From: Chitinophagaceae bacterium
Lineage (GTDB): Bacteria > Bacteroidota > Bacteroidia > Chitinophagales > Chitinophagaceae
Assembly: GCA_023251255.1 (NCBI GenBank)
Contig: JAHEZD010000003.1
Coordinates: 1 to 41,534, forward strand
DNA length: 41,534 nt
Reading direction: 5' to 3'
Under the pieces are notes generated by a model. The model worked only from the letters and a program-made list of their open reading frames with translations, was not told where the DNA came from and searched no databases. Below are positions 12,265 to 19,038 of this stretch, piece after piece. Position 1 is the first letter of the stretch. Each line of letters starts with the position of its first letter. The translations under genes were made by a program, and so were the position numbers.

Positions 12265-13002
12265 ATGAAAACACTGGCTTTGTACAACTTGAAAGGTGGT
12301 GTGGGGAAAACGGCGGCGGCCGTTAACCTTGCTTATTTGGCTGCTGCCGATGGATTGAAGACCCTGGTTTGGGATCTGGACCCCCAGGGATCGTCCTCTT
12401 TTTACTTACATGTAAAAAATGACAAGGCAGATAGTGAAAAACTATTTTCCGGCAAGATGGATATAAAGGATGCCATCAAGGACTCCAGATTTGAAAACCT
12501 TTGGGTAATTCCTGCCGATATCTCTGCAAGGAACTTTGATACCATTGTGGATGATATAAAGCAGAGCAAAAAAAAGCTGAAAAGCCTCCTGAACGGATTG
12601 AAGGGATTTGATTTAGTTGTTCTCGATTGCCCACCGGGTATTTCCTTATTGCATGACAATGTTTTCAATGCTGCTGATTGGATTTTGATGCCCAATATCC
12701 CAACAACCTTATCCATACGCAGTTATGAAACCGTGGCTGAATATTTCAAGGCGAATGACTTGGATAAATCAAAAATAAAATGCTTCTTCAGTATGGTGGA
12801 CCACCGCAAGACATTGCACCATGAAACATTGCAGGCGTTTTACAACAATAGGTTCTTCCTTAAAAACTACATACCCTATTTAAGCGATGTGGAGAAAATG
12901 GGCGTCAATGAACAGCCATTATTTGAGTTTGCAAACAGCAGCTATGCAGCACAATGTTTCAGGGACCTATGGAAAGATGTGCGGAAGCACTGCATTGATT
13001 AA
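12265..13002 (+). CDS. ParA/MinD-family ATPase
   Basis: A 245-residue cytosolic P-loop ATPase of the ParA group. The deviant Walker A motif KGGVGKT lies at 10-16, a DLDPQGSSS switch at 38-46 and the Walker B region LVVLDCPPG near 117-125. It lacks the N-terminal helix-turn-helix found in some plasmid ParA proteins. No ParB gene or parS-like site is adjacent, so it is better viewed as an orphan ParA-like ATPase that positions or activates something else. An esterase gene follows after 132 bp on the same strand. Nothing nearby suggests a plasmid or phage partition cassette. Confidence 0.9.
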   Translation: MKTLALYNLKGGVGKTAAAVNLAYLAAADGLKTLVWDLDPQGSSSFYLHVKNDKADSEKLFSGKMDIKDAIKDSRFENLWVIPADISARNFDTIVDDIKQSKKKLKSLLNGLKGFDLVVLDCPPGISLLHDNVFNAADWILMPNIPTTLSIRSYETVAEYFKANDLDKSKIKCFFSMVDHRKTLHHETLQAFYNNRFFLKNYIPYLSDVEKMGVNEQPLFEFANSSYAAQCFRDLWKDVRKHCID

Positions 13003-14866: not shown

Positions 14867-15763
14867 CTACTCATTGACTGCCTGCTTTTCCGGTTCATCG
14901 TTAAAGTCGCCAGCTTCTAACTCCATCCTTCTGGTAATATCGCTAAGCGAAGCAAATTTTTCCACGGCATACGGAATGGTCTCAAGGCCATATACAAAGT
15001 TCTTGATGTAGAAATAAATACCAATTACACTACCTGCGTCCAACACGGCATCCGTGGTAGTTTCTGTAATAATCAAGGAAATGGCAATAACAATAATGGA
15101 AAGGACTTCCATCACACCAAAGTTCCATGCTTGTTTATCGGAAATCTTTATTTGCCAATGCTTCAACTTTTCATAGTGGCGACGAATGGCCAGGATATTG
15201 CCAGAGGAGATAATGTCTACCTGCTGTTCCAGCTCATCATTCTTCATCCTGTTAAGCACTTTCATTTTCTTGCCATAATAATAACTGATGGCCAGCACCG
15301 GAACCAGGATAGCCATACAAATACCAACAACCCTTATATCATAGAAGCAAAGTAAAATAAGCGAACCAAAAATATTATATGCCGCTTCTATCACATAAAC
15401 AAGGTCATGTTCCAAAAAATCAACGAACTCCCTGGACAATGTTGAATGTGCCGAAAGCTTGGAAACATCTGCAAGAACATATTTCCGGCTTAAAAATTTT
15501 GTGACAATGGATGTGTAGATACCCGAATAGGTCCTTGTGTCATAGCGTTGCCTTATTACACCAATAACCATCCATGCCACCCGCACCAAGCACAAAATGA
15601 CAAGGCCAGTGTACTTTTCATAAATCAGCCCATTGATGGCCTCACCCAAAAAATAGGGGGTCAATAAGGAGCCAATCATTTCGAGTGAAAAAAGGATATA
15701 GGTAACCAGCAACTGGAAACGGTGCTTTTTAAAAATGCGTCTTAAAATTCTTAATTGGGGCAT
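14867..15763 (-). CDS. ABC-transporter six-helix membrane domain without ATPase domain
   Basis: About 298 residues, all resembling an exporter-type ABC transmembrane domain: hydrophobic helices near 19-40, 54-72, 125-170 and 215-270, and a long cytosolic charged loop between. No Walker A, signature LSGGQ or Walker B is present, and no separate ATPase gene lies in the window. This matches the family of stand-alone ABC six-transmembrane-domain proteins (ABC_membrane_3 type), so the short length is probably native and not a truncation. I chose the ATG at 15761-15763 over a TTG two codons upstream. It follows the ATP-grasp-SET fusion gene after about 190 bp on the same strand and could export or sense the product of that cluster. 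Confidence 0.85.
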   Translation of the reverse strand: MPQLRILRRIFKKHRFQLLVTYILFSLEMIGSLLTPYFLGEAINGLIYEKYTGLVILCLVRVAWMVIGVIRQRYDTRTYSGIYTSIVTKFLSRKYVLADVSKLSAHSTLSREFVDFLEHDLVYVIEAAYNIFGSLILLCFYDIRVVGICMAILVPVLAISYYYGKKMKVLNRMKNDELEQQVDIISSGNILAIRRHYEKLKHWQIKISDKQAWNFGVMEVLSIIVIAISLIITETTTDAVLDAGSVIGIYFYIKNFVYGLETIPYAVEKFASLSDITRRMELEAGDFNDEPEKQAVNE

Positions 15764-15953
15764 ATCCAAACCTTCTTTTAAAATCGTTAGGGTTACAAAG
15801 CTTTTTCTAGAAAGTAGCTGGTATAAGACCTATTGGGCTTACACTTGTTTAATGGTCTGGAATATATGGGAAGGCAAATTTAGCCTAAGAAGCGTACAAG
15901 GCTAGGTTAAAAAAAGATAAAGAAGGAGGAATGATTGTATAAAAGCTTGATTA

Positions 15954-17357
15954 TTAACCAATCATATTGCCCTTTAGTCCAGAAACCCTTCCCCGGCAAT
16001 TAGGGGAACCGCACTGGCAATTAAAGGGCTCAGCAGTTTCATCCAGGAAACTGGCATAATCCAAGGTAAGCTCCTCCCCTTTTTGAATGTTTTTCAGGGC
16101 AACTACATTCAGCCCCGCATACCCTGTATTGGCATTGCAGCTATGGTTTTGAGGCGCCCATTCACTTGGGTTGCTGTCCCATAAAATGAACACTTGGTTG
16201 CTTATAGGGTAGGCATAGCGGCGGAAGTCCTCTTTTTCGGCTTCGCTCCAATTTTCTGCAACAAAGTTTTTAGTAACAATCCGTTGAGGCCTTCCTTCTC
16301 CTTTAAAAACAGTCTCACCTGCGGCAATTGCAACCGTTGCATAAATGCCGTACCCCGCAATTGAATTGCCCTTTACCATGTATTTTTTCTGGTTCCTTTT
16401 ATGCCGTGCAATACCTTCTTCAATAATATGGTCCAGGAACCCCTGTTGGCCAATGCCATCATACTTCAGAATATAATCTGCACTTCCTTCATAACCATCC
16501 TTGTAGAAAACGGAACAGGTAAAATTGATTTCAAGAAAATATAGCTCCCCTTTATTGTCCATCCTGAAATCCAATCTTGCATACCCAACCCCATTGAATG
16601 ATTGGAATATGGCTTTTGCTGCAGTCTTCAACTCATTGGACAGGACCTTGTCTTCCACAGGAACATTGGCGTCTGTATGCAGTTCGGATGTTTTCAGGGC
16701 GTATGTCTTGAACCTTTTCCCTTCGGGGAAAATGAATTCAACAGGTTCCAACGCTGTAGATGTTTTGCCATCCGTATTGCCCATTACCAATACCGTGAAT
16801 TCCCTACCTGCAATATATTCTTCCACCAGTAGTTCATCATATTCCTGAATAATGGAAGAAACTTTTTGCAGGAGCCCCTCTTCGTTGTGAACAAGCGAAG
16901 AATCATCAATACCCAAACTGTCACCAGCTTTTGCTGGTTTAATAAACAGGGGAAAGTGCAAATGTTTGCAGGCTTCCAATGCCAGTTGCTCCTGTTCAAT
17001 CAAGGCGTAGGCCGGTGTTTTTACGGATGCACAATAGGCCACATATTTCATCAGTTCCTTTGGCGGATCGTACAGTAAAGTGGTAGGCCCAGTAAAAGGA
17101 AGGGTCAGCAGTTCCAGTGTATAAATAACATCAATGCTGGGAACCTCCCATTCCAAATAGCCCTCACAAAGGTTCACGAAAATAGCATAGCCCTTTTTGC
17201 TTAAGGACTTGAGCTGTTGGTAGGTAGTAAGCTTGTTCAGGAAGATGGTGTGCACTTCGTGCCCCGGCAGTAGAACAGTTAAGTCCCTTGGCGGGTCATA
17301 GTATTGGTAATCTACTGATGAAGTTGAATAGTCTGGTTGTAGAACGCAAATTTTCAT
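15954..17357 (-). CDS. ATP-grasp ligase fused to a SET-domain methyltransferase
   Basis: A 467-residue fusion. Residues 1-315 are a D-Ala-D-Ala-ligase-like ATP-grasp enzyme: Lys140 in FIKPA, Glu179/Glu180 in LLVEEYI, Arg186, Asp263 in RLDFRMD, and the metal ligands Glu276 and Asn278 in YFLEINFT. Residues about 322-467 are a SET domain with GYGIYA at 335-340, the pseudoknot motif NHSCNAN at 404-410, ELTLDYA at 429-435 and a zinc-binding post-SET motif CQCGSPNC (Cys447, 449, 454). All hallmark residues of both enzymes look intact. ATP-grasp enzymes join a carboxylate to an amine; SET domains methylate lysine or similar amines using S-adenosylmethionine. The substrate is unknown. The start overlaps the upstream ATP-grasp stop by 4 bp, indicating translational coupling. 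No signal peptide. Confidence 0.92.
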   Translation of the reverse strand: MKICVLQPDYSTSSVDYQYYDPPRDLTVLLPGHEVHTIFLNKLTTYQQLKSLSKKGYAIFVNLCEGYLEWEVPSIDVIYTLELLTLPFTGPTTLLYDPPKELMKYVAYCASVKTPAYALIEQEQLALEACKHLHFPLFIKPAKAGDSLGIDDSSLVHNEEGLLQKVSSIIQEYDELLVEEYIAGREFTVLVMGNTDGKTSTALEPVEFIFPEGKRFKTYALKTSELHTDANVPVEDKVLSNELKTAAKAIFQSFNGVGYARLDFRMDNKGELYFLEINFTCSVFYKDGYEGSADYILKYDGIGQQGFLDHIIEEGIARHKRNQKKYMVKGNSIAGYGIYATVAIAAGETVFKGEGRPQRIVTKNFVAENWSEAEKEDFRRYAYPISNQVFILWDSNPSEWAPQNHSCNANTGYAGLNVVALKNIQKGEELTLDYASFLDETAEPFNCQCGSPNCRGRVSGLKGNMIG

Positions 17358-18493
17358 GCTGCTTTTAATGGTCGTTTCTGTTTGCCAACAGTTGCAGGTT
17401 CCAATGACTCCGCAGCATTGTTCAACGTGTTCGTCAAAATTGTTTCAATAAGGGCCGTAAATGTTTGATTGCTGAACTTGAGTATAGCTCCAATGGAAGT
17501 ATAGTTTTCATCCTCACTTATGCCACACTGTGCGTTCACTTCAAGCACCAATAGCTTTCCAGATGATTTATCCATCCGGATATCAACCCTTGTATAGCCC
17601 CTGCCCTTGCAGGCCACATAAGCATCCCAGCTTATCTTTTTTAAGGCCCCGTGCAGTGAGGTGTCCGGTACAGCGTATTCATAAAAGTTCTCCTCGTTGG
17701 GCATGGGCGTTTCATCTTCATAGATTTCCCAAAGCCTATCGAACGACAGGAACCTTTCTGTTGCTGGCAATGATTCATGGAACACCCTTTCAACGGGTGT
17801 ATAAATAACAGCACTGGCCGGTTTATCATAATCGCCCACAATCATCACGGTGTATTCCGGCCCGTCCACATAAGATTCTGCAATGATGCCATCCGTGGTC
17901 AATTGCCAGCCACGGTAACCATCAAACATTTTATTTACCTGCCCCTGCAGCTCCTTTCCATCTTTCACCACATTCCTGATGCTCACGCCCATACTGCCAC
18001 CACTTACAGAAGGCTTCACAATAATGGGCCAATTGAACTTGTCAAACAGCCCATTCAGGTCCTGTTCCCTGCTGCCAATGGCCTCCCATGCAGGCGTAGC
18101 CACATTGTAGGCATCAAAAGCCTGTTTCATGGGAACCTTGGAGGTGGTGATATTGTAGAAATAGGCATCCGATCCAGTGTACAGTAACTTCTTTTCTTCC
18201 AAGTAATGGATAACGGAAACACCGGGTGTCCCATTAATTTCATCCCCATCGCATAGGTTAAGTACAACAGCGGTTTTGGTGGACAATTGCTCCTTGGCAA
18301 TCCTGTCAATCACTTCCTTATAATCACCCATGGTTACAGGCTGCCATTGCCATGGTATATCCAGTTCCTTAAAAGTGCTGGTATATTCTTCAATACTTTG
18401 GGAGAAGTCATAATAGTAATCAATGTTTTCATCATTGGTTACCAGATGGGGTACAAGCACCCAGACTTTTATTTGCTGCAGGTCAATGGTCAA
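17354..18493 (-). CDS. D-Ala-D-Ala-ligase-like ATP-grasp enzyme
   Basis: A 379-residue cytosolic ligase related to, but distinct from, D-alanine-D-alanine ligase. The ATP-binding Lys160 (IIVKPS), the flexible SVSGGSMGVS loop at 162-171, Glu206 (IIAESYVDG), Arg302/Asp304 (TRVDIRMD) and metal ligands Glu318 and Asn320 (LLVLEVNAQCG) are all present. It is not the housekeeping Ddl: the amino-terminal part differs and the gene is embedded with SET genes instead of murein genes. The start is a TTG at 18491-18493, because no ATG exists upstream before the frame leaves the gap; the gap to the upstream SET gene is 53 bp. It overlaps the following fusion gene by 4 bp. Confidence 0.92.
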   Translation of the reverse strand: MTIDLQQIKVWVLVPHLVTNDENIDYYYDFSQSIEEYTSTFKELDIPWQWQPVTMGDYKEVIDRIAKEQLSTKTAVVLNLCDGDEINGTPGVSVIHYLEEKKLLYTGSDAYFYNITTSKVPMKQAFDAYNVATPAWEAIGSREQDLNGLFDKFNWPIIVKPSVSGGSMGVSIRNVVKDGKELQGQVNKMFDGYRGWQLTTDGIIAESYVDGPEYTVMIVGDYDKPASAVIYTPVERVFHESLPATERFLSFDRLWEIYEDETPMPNEENFYEYAVPDTSLHGALKKISWDAYVACKGRGYTRVDIRMDKSSGKLLVLEVNAQCGISEDENYTSIGAILKFSNQTFTALIETILTNTLNNAAESLEPATVGKQKRPLKAA

Positions 18494-18546
18494 TTTGTAT
18501 GTTGTTAGTTTGCAAGCCCGAGCTGTCTATCAGCTCAACCCTACAA

Positions 18547-19038
18547 TTATTTATTGAGCATGCTTTGTATAAAAGCAGTGAGTTTATAATTGGGCAAGAT
18601 TCCTTTGGATAGGTACTTGGCCCCCTGTACCTGCTTGATGCAGCTTGCCGTACCGCACAAACATTCAAAAGGCTGGGCCATGTCCCATTCGGTGGCTGGA
18701 TAAAAGAAGCAAAGCTCATCGCCTGCTTCAATATCCTTCAGGCATTCAAGCTGCATGGTATCCGTGTTGAACAGCACATTGGGCTCACAACTATGGTTGA
18801 TGTACTGTAGGTATTCGGGCCTAAGGTGTATATGTTCATCCTCTCCTATTTGCACCGTTAAGTAGGTAGGCTCCTTTAAAATGGCTGCTGCCGAAAAGGG
18901 GCAGATAACACTGCCTGCACTGAAGTTCTGCATGGCGAAAAAAGCCTTGGCAAGCGAAGCTTCATCTTCCCTTATTTCACCAAAACCATGGGAGCTAATC
19001 ACATGGTAAATAGGTTGGGTTAATTGTTGTGTAAGCAT
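18547..19038 (-). CDS. Stand-alone SET-domain protein
   Basis: A 163-residue protein that is essentially a compact SET domain: a GFGEIRE-like first motif near 18-24, NHSCEPN at 81-87, the GDELCFFYPA segment with Tyr113, and a post-SET CLCGTASC with Cys126, Cys128 and Cys133. The core is shorter than the SET part of the downstream fusion and the first glycine motif is weaker, so activity is likely but less certain. It could be a second methyltransferase or a partner of the fusion protein. It is the first gene of the minus-strand cluster; its ATG is at 19036-19038. SET proteins are rare in bacteria, and finding two in one operon with ligases is unusual. Confidence 0.9.
   Translation of the reverse strand: MLTQQLTQPIYHVISSHGFGEIREDEASLAKAFFAMQNFSAGSVICPFSAAAILKEPTYLTVQIGEDEHIHLRPEYLQYINHSCEPNVLFNTDTMQLECLKDIEAGDELCFFYPATEWDMAQPFECLCGTASCIKQVQGAKYLSKGILPNYKLTAFIQSMLNK

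Follow-up and report, generated by a model that had tools for sequence, protein, structure and literature searches.

In this study we describe a cassette of four consecutive minus-strand genes in a Chitinophagaceae bacterium (GenBank assembly GCA_023251255.1, contig JAHEZD010000003.1) that brings together two ATP-grasp ligases, two SET domains and an orphan ATP-binding cassette (ABC) membrane domain. The window, by which we mean the whole stretch of 41,534 nucleotides that was analysed, corresponds to bases 1-41534 of contig 136 of this genome (6.1 Mb, 188 contigs). The genes and the gaps between them are as follows:

18547-19038, minus strand: SET1, stand-alone SET-fold methyltransferase, 163 aa (open reading frame; Pfam SET, PF00856, E 1.7e-10)
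18494-18546, minus strand: gap between SET1 and AG1, 53 bp, operon-like spacing (from the open reading frame coordinates)
17354-18493, minus strand: AG1, D-Ala-D-Ala-ligase-like ATP-grasp enzyme, 379 aa, TTG start (open reading frame; PF07478, E 8.1e-14)
15954-17357, minus strand: AGS, ATP-grasp ligase with C-terminal SET/post-SET, 467 aa (open reading frame; PF07478, E 1.8e-24)
15770-15953, minus strand: gap between AGS and the TTG of the membrane gene, 184 bp, no conserved small open reading frame seen (comparison of small open reading frames over loci)
14867-15763 (ATG), minus strand: orphan ABC-type membrane domain with no ATPase domain (ABC_membrane_3, PF13748, E 4.2e-41)

The positions and domains of the four genes agree with those of an initial annotation made from the letters of the window alone. 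Pfam finds Dala_Dala_lig_C (PF07478) in both AG1 and AGS and places SET (PF00856) at AGS residues 335-434, and the two ligase genes overlap by 4 bp (17354-17357), as that annotation had stated. The start of the membrane gene was refined. The list of open reading frames begins it with the TTG at 15769, giving 300 aa; since Met3 of this protein is invariant in 16/16 aligned sequences, the ATG at 15763 is the likelier start. AG1 and the ligase half of AGS are related to each other, sharing 29% identity over 268 residues. The window's genome holds seven SET matches, two of which lie in the cassette.

Conservation of the cassette in Chitinophagales

We surveyed 298 genomes of the order Chitinophagales with the AGS protein as query at a threshold of 1e-10. 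Any match was found in 129 of them and a full-length AGS orthologue in 39 (58-100% identity); the remaining 90 match in the ligase part only, which presumably represents D-Ala-D-Ala ligase (Ddl) in most cases. AG1 orthologues (profile search, E up to 1e-80) are also present in 39 of the same 298 genomes, and the two lists, compared by eye, are identical: 39 genomes bear both genes and 259 bear neither. Forty loci were fetched from the order, namely the 39 with a full-length AGS, including the window's own, and a divergent locus without SET (L056). AG1 adjoins AGS in 39/39, with one opposite-strand gene lying between them in L073. SET1 is part of the cassette in 29 of the 39, standing upstream of AG1 in 28 and past the membrane gene in L046, and the membrane gene follows AGS in 17. 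Over the 298 genomes, a SET1 orthologue (E up to 1e-25) was found in 35. Thirty-three of these are among the 39 AGS genomes, and in four of the 33 SET1 lies away from the cassette; the other two belong to the 259 genomes that lack AGS.

A scan of genome contigs from 84,980 species returned 321 AGS relatives, of which the best 80, from 78 assemblies, were kept. By title these best 80 come from Chitinophagaceae, Chitinophagales, Bacteroidetes or genera such as Ferruginibacter, Sediminibacterium, Lacibacter, Hydrotalea and Terrimonas, apart from one Sphingobacteriales and one 'uncultured bacterium'. Their gene orders are SET1-AG1-AGS-membrane in 39, SET1-AG1-AGS in 23, AG1-AGS in 9, AG1-AGS-membrane in 6, AGS-membrane in 2 and AG1-AGS-membrane-SET1 in 1, some contigs stopping inside the cassette. 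KLAP41 is the sole assembly that appears more than once among these 80 loci; it has three cassette loci (L109, L118 and L119), which might be copies or mixed strains. Pooling gave 119 loci, reduced to 107 distinct ones by merging identical AGS sequences. All four genes are found in 49 of them, SET1-AG1-AGS in 33, AG1-AGS in 17, AG1-AGS-membrane in 6 and AGS-membrane in 2. The last two are L118, which starts at a contig edge, and L129, which does not and bears AGS and the membrane gene without AG1 despite 6 kb of upstream sequence. The AG1-AGS pair is thus kept in 105/107 distinct loci, so that the conserved adjacency on which the initial annotation had made its proposal depend is indeed observed.

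Spacing within the cassette is operon-like. Measured over all loci, duplicates included, the gap between SET1 and AG1 never exceeds 63 bp in 92 loci (two of them with SET1 downstream); AG1 and AGS lie within 60 bp of each other in 87/117 loci, 14 of which show the same 4-bp overlap, with a maximum gap of 1708 bp; and AGS and the membrane gene are separated by 44-227 bp (median 111, 65 loci). Seven of the 40 loci fetched from the order is the most in which any flanking gene family recurs. The ratio of non-synonymous to synonymous substitution rates (dN/dS), taken from 14 pairs of close relatives, is low for every gene where it could be computed (SET1 0.05-0.21, AG1 0.02-0.11, AGS 0.02-0.09, membrane gene 0.02-0.07). 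Estimates with dS > 1 are rough, and dS was saturated for AG1 and AGS in 2/14 pairs. By this measure the orphan membrane gene shows no sign of decay. Taken together, the cassette is a real, evolutionarily conserved bacterial gene set and not a chance arrangement, and the earlier suggestion of one joint system is well supported by its conserved adjacency and co-occurrence.

The membrane protein is a clear member of the PF13748 family of orphan ABC membrane proteins, and the absence of an ATPase, already noted in the initial annotation, extends to its relatives, as a Walker A motif occurs in 0/65 membrane proteins (two of them incomplete). At 1e-20 the gene has matches in 22 of the 298 genomes. 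Eighteen score above 480 bits and 17 of these adjoin AGS, whereas the other four matches reach 119-187 bits and come from genomes that lack a full-length AGS. The eighteenth close orthologue (G233) is preceded, at a distance of about 2.7 kb and close to a contig end, by a fragment of 75 residues from the SET domain of AGS; the interval between the two holds two other open reading frames (L240:9248-13066).

The ligases and the SET domains

In 28 aligned sequences each, K140, E179, R261, D263, E276 and N278 are invariant in AGS, as are K160, E206, R302, D304, E318 and N320 in AG1; we take these to be the catalytic residues by analogy with Ddl and by alignment to it. The ligase motifs of AGS are kept nearly throughout the 107 distinct loci (KPxxxGDSLG 107, RxDFR 107, LExNFxCSVFY 107, KTYxLKTS 106, YDPxR 105; a narrower pattern, EE..xGREFT, 86), and so are those of its SET domain (QNHxC 107, catalytic LTx(D/N)Y 105, post-SET CxCx4C 107). 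AG1 keeps RxDIR in 105/105 sequences, ExNAQCGxSxDE in 104, KPxxSxGSxG in 102 and FLSFDRLWE in 100, and the narrower pattern YYYDF in 88. AlphaFold2 models were built on alignments of the window protein with named relatives. That of AGS reaches a mean predicted local distance difference test score (pLDDT) of 86.4 and a predicted template modelling score (pTM) of 0.85; blocks with mean pLDDT below 70 are residues 11-20, 61-70, 141-150, 221-230, 281-290 and the C-terminal end, among them loops that border the active site in Ddl. The SET1 model has a mean pLDDT of 93.9 and a pTM of 0.86. The kept motifs and the confident models are in line with the earlier view that the catalytic residues of all enzymes are intact.

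All matches listed for AG1 and AGS in sequence and fold comparisons are Ddl-like, and the best Foldseek match of AGS is Ddl itself (E 1.3e-18). With Ddl and Ddl-like amino-acid ligases the cassette ligases share the ATP-grasp fold and the catalytic Lys, Glu, Arg-x-Asp and Glu-x-Asn. However, AGS has conserved loops of its own (YDPxR, KTYxLKTS, NFxCSVFY) and the fused SET domain, and AG1 has FLSFDRLWE and NAQCG. A housekeeping role as Ddl was rejected for both, since they score 93.6 and 68 bits against TIGR01205 (cut-off 245.65) and the true Ddl of the window's genome lies elsewhere (285.1 bits). Both ligases bear a YD motif in an N-terminal loop (YDPxR in AGS, YYYDF in AG1), at the place where Ddl reads the amino group of its first substrate. 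As a speculation, this motif could bind a cationic methylated group.

Among 82 SET1 sequences the motifs NHxCxP and CxCx4C are present in all, IxGA in 81, FYPSTEWxM in 80 and TxQ in 78 (82/82 once Ile is allowed in its middle). The canonical SET motifs, namely NHSC, the catalytic Tyr and the post-SET Cys, are kept in both SET1 and the SET domain of AGS; the motif pair is named as in PMC3980110. In a SET tree of 30 rows, made with a quick method, the two form separate groups; one of the five other SETs of the window's genome was picked up by pattern for this tree, and its long branches leave the deeper joins unsure.

Among solved structures, the nearest relative of SET1, with homology across most of the protein, is BurB from the bur dimethylsulfoniopropionate (DMSP)/malleicyprol pathway of Burkholderia thailandensis (PDB 9l4t, 9l4v). 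The SET1 profile matches BurB with E 5.2e-21 over positions 17-147, the best histone enzyme reaching 1.4e-9 in its C-terminal part only. Foldseek also ranks BurB first (E 8.8e-10, template modelling (TM) score 0.70, root mean square deviation (rmsd) 7.0 Å over 150 columns; 4.5 and 6.9 Å for other BurB chains), followed by histone lysine methyltransferases (best E 2.8e-6, TM about 0.5). BurB is described as a SET protein that S-methylates free methionine; its authors propose a mechanism of proximity and desolvation, with the methionine held by main-chain contacts (PMC12542666). Like SET1 it is a short, free-standing SET protein with TxQ...H and YxSTE...CxC positions. Mapped by eye, T73, Q75, H81, Y124 and E128 of BurB correspond to T61, Q63, H69, Y113 and E117 of SET1, which are invariant in alignments of 26 and of 41 rows. 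The bur genes are reported to feed a polyketide synthase (PKS)-non-ribosomal peptide synthetase, and an ATP-grasp partner is not named there (PMC7496086).

Tblastn of SET1 on plasmids gave seven records, and four contexts were opened. A more distant SET of Eleftheria terrae lies among bur-like genes, between a PKS and a set of dioxygenase, aminotransferase and dehydrogenase genes. A Sphingomonas SET precedes a gene annotated as diaminopimelate decarboxylase (a pyridoxal phosphate-type decarboxylase), a Rhizobium one stands between asparagine-synthase-related and S-adenosylmethionine (SAM)-decarboxylase genes, and a Streptomyces one adjoins oxygenase and transporter genes, with P450, short-chain dehydrogenase/reductase and aminotransferase genes a few genes off. 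These contexts lean towards small-molecule work for this type of SET, without proving it for SET1. As for the residue before the His of HSC, the plasmid relatives read LHSC, THGC and AHAC and the Streptomyces one NHSC; a residue other than Asn at this position, which by a criterion of our own marks the BurB family, is not what SET1 has.

Variants in green sulfur bacteria and other lineages

Beyond the order, 41 of 395 genomes drawn from the phylum match AGS at 1e-30, 17 of them in full length. Nine of these 17 belong to one family, which we identify as the green sulfur bacteria because the members tested (3/3) encode the FMO protein. A search of this family, the Chlorobiaceae, likewise found AGS in 9/81 genomes, a patchy distribution. 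The order of their variant is SET1, AGS, a complete ABC half-transporter and a short SET. SET1 precedes AGS in 7/7 loci fetched, and in six of the seven the ABC protein (580-694 aa) and a third SET (118-120 aa) follow, the seventh locus stopping at a contig edge. Pfam finds membrane and ATPase domains in the one ABC protein that was searched, and Walker A and LSGGQ are present in 6/6. The short third SET closes the operon at L191:12401-12763 and at equivalent places in L190, L192-L194 and L196. Among the other genomes, G497 has its cassette split, with AGS on one contig and SET1-AG1 on another, and G496 and G621 show AGS without another cassette gene in the stretch fetched.

Several origins and explanations were tried and set aside. 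None of 85 pattern matches on viral contigs is a relative, so a phage origin was rejected; spread by plasmids was rejected too, as no plasmid match spans 80% of AGS. The N-methyl-bacillithiol pathway of Chlorobium does not explain the cassette either, its NmbA being described as a class I enzyme (PMC12719100).

Ligase relatives without SET were found in 25 fetched loci. In 15 of these (L198-L202, L204-L206, L211, L212, L214-L217, L221) a lone ligase gene stands divergent to one with weak similarity to Peptidase_C39, and an isochorismatase-like gene lies nearby in 12 (Pfam was run on L199 only). Six others (L203, L209, L210, L213, L218, L219) bear two adjacent Ddl-like ATP-grasps after a RecG-like gene; five are followed by a gene of 157-163 aa and five have a lysine-2,3-aminomutase-like gene, and Pfam on members of L209 and L218 gives RecG, GNAT and LAM_C. 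These paired ligases, accompanied in most of the six loci by a GNAT and an aminomutase-like gene, are possibly a second system. A further ligase relative, on a Thioflavicoccus plasmid, has diaminopropionate-type genes around it. Judging from these contexts, the wider ligase family sits partly with genes for amino-acid-derived small molecules and partly not.

A possible pathway and its alternatives

We think it probable, at roughly 60%, that the cassette is a compact ATP-grasp biosynthetic operon for a small methylated peptide-like metabolite. The gene set with its order, co-occurrence and selection, the kept motifs and the predicted folds are what the sequences show; the reactions and their order, the substrates, product and export are inferred, and would be as follows. 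AGS and AG1 would each activate a carboxylate at the expense of ATP and link it to a partner resembling an amino acid, in the fashion of Ddl though on substrates of their own. AGS might couple the first two building blocks, with its SET domain methylating the substrate or the product by means of SAM; AG1 would make a second bond, a step not needed in Chlorobiaceae. SET1 would methylate with SAM at a site different from that of the AGS SET domain. By analogy with BurB, the methyl acceptor of these SETs may be a free amino acid, at its sulfur or nitrogen. The product could be moved across the membrane or kept at it, a task of the orphan ABC domain in Chitinophagales and of the ABC half-transporter in green sulfur bacteria. 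A metabolite that is built and methylated, as the initial annotation had suggested, fits the evidence as a proposal. Its premise that SET domains methylate amines was too narrow, as BurB methylates sulfur. Its idea that the membrane protein handles the product gains some support from the half-transporter at the equivalent place in Chlorobiaceae and loses from the missing ATPase and from the absence of the gene from over half of the cassettes.

Several observations weigh against such a pathway. AG1 was not seen in the seven Chlorobiaceae loci fetched and SET1 was not found in six of the 39 AGS genomes of the order, so the steps are not fixed; in one of the six (G263) the contig begins at AG1, and its SET1 may therefore be lost in a gap. 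The membrane gene lies beside AGS in just 17/39 genomes and has no ATPase, which weakens the case for export in Chitinophagales. Its profile gives no significant match to the Chlorobiaceae transporter (E 0.29), and homology between the two is not supported. SET1 keeps the canonical Asn of NHSC, whereas BurB has Leu (LHSC), and with the rmsd of 4.5-7.0 Å this means that SET1 does not necessarily share the chemistry of BurB. The PDB seems to contain few bacterial SETs of comparable size, so that BurB as best match is weaker evidence than membership of its family would be. Finally, the 15 single SET-less ligases opposite a weakly peptidase-like gene provide no argument for small-molecule synthesis.

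The strongest alternative, though an unlikely one, is protein modification: the ATP-grasps would add amino acids to a protein and the SETs would methylate its lysines, with the membrane protein as target or anchor. RimK and tubulin-tyrosine-ligase (TTL)-like enzymes do add amino acids to proteins, protein lysine methyltransferases are the best-known SET enzymes, they provide the best structure matches of SET1 after BurB, and a target protein need not sit in the operon. TTL, which has an ATP-grasp-type fold, provides a eukaryotic parallel. In TTLL12 a SET-like and a TTL-like domain are likewise fused in one protein, which is reported not to catalyse histone methylation (PMC3520985); it belongs to another ligase family. 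Yet BurB, the solved protein closest to SET1, works on a free amino acid, the ligases are nearest to Ddl in sequence and fold, and the Chlorobiaceae variant carries an ABC half-transporter.

A sulfonium or betaine solute, a special case of the proposed metabolite, seems rather improbable. Here SET1 would, like BurB, make S-methylmethionine or a similar charged amino acid and the ligases would build a dipeptide-like protectant from it. The homology of SET1 to BurB, including the shared T61, Q63, H69, Y113 and E117, and the YD motifs of both ligases speak for such a solute. Against it stand the Asn of NHSC and the lack of bur-type decarboxylase, transaminase and dehydrogenase genes among nine window proteins scanned, including the five neighbours. 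Nor was a riboswitch found at gathering scores in seven loci, where two tRNAs were the sole matches.

Slightly less probable still is a function in the cell envelope, in which the ligases would supply peptidoglycan, or a different envelope polymer, with an alternative dipeptide that the SETs methylate, and the membrane protein would assist in the manner of a flippase. AG1 and AGS are indeed both members of the Ddl superfamily and have a membrane protein linked to them, but no flanking family of any kind recurs beyond the seven loci mentioned above, the spread is patchy in both the order and the Chlorobiaceae, and neither ligase reaches the Ddl cut-off in a genome that has its true Ddl elsewhere. 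That unrelated genes lie side by side by chance is ruled out by the conserved order, the differing flanks, the low dN/dS and the fact that none of the 298 genomes has AG1 without AGS or AGS without AG1.

Among known systems, graspetide clusters, which make ribosomally synthesised and post-translationally modified peptides (RiPPs), combine ATP-grasp ligases often with tailoring enzymes and exporters. The cassette differs from them in its Ddl-like ligases and in that a search for a precursor gene came up empty: of the small open reading frames grouped into families, the eight largest groups (5-8 loci each) all lie outside it, in agreement with the initial annotation, and a RiPP with a precursor peptide was rejected on these grounds. 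While each enzyme family is known, their combination with SET-fold methyltransferases, one of them fused to a ligase, appears to be new, and among the open-access papers listed in our searches none describes ATP-grasp with SET by title or abstract start. In 2020 the authors of the BurB work wrote that little was known about prokaryotic SETs and that natural-product methyltransferases had been found just in classes I and III (PMC7496086). It might be possible, a view we hold more tentatively than the proposed biosynthetic operon itself, that the cassette represents a new class of small-molecule pathway in which bifunctional ATP-grasp-SET enzymes and class V (SET-fold) methyltransferases, as dedicated tailoring enzymes, make a methylated peptide-like metabolite, possibly sulfonium- or ammonium-bearing, common to Chitinophagales and some green sulfur bacteria. 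With 107 distinct AGS sequences, from roughly a hundred genomes, the cassette offers a testable case for the function of bacterial SETs; it predicts a metabolite or a modification in Chitinophagaceae and their relatives, and it would tie a subgroup of the PF13748 family to a pathway.

Two minor observations concern the window itself. A ParA-like ATPase is encoded at 12265-13002, with no partner among the neighbours scanned. The window's SET1 is 77-80% identical to the SET1 of L079 and L080 and 53-60% to that of four other relatives, while with L079 and L080 AGS shares 71-72%, AG1 64-66% and the membrane gene 58-59%; the greater closeness of SET1 suggests that it has been replaced between lineages.

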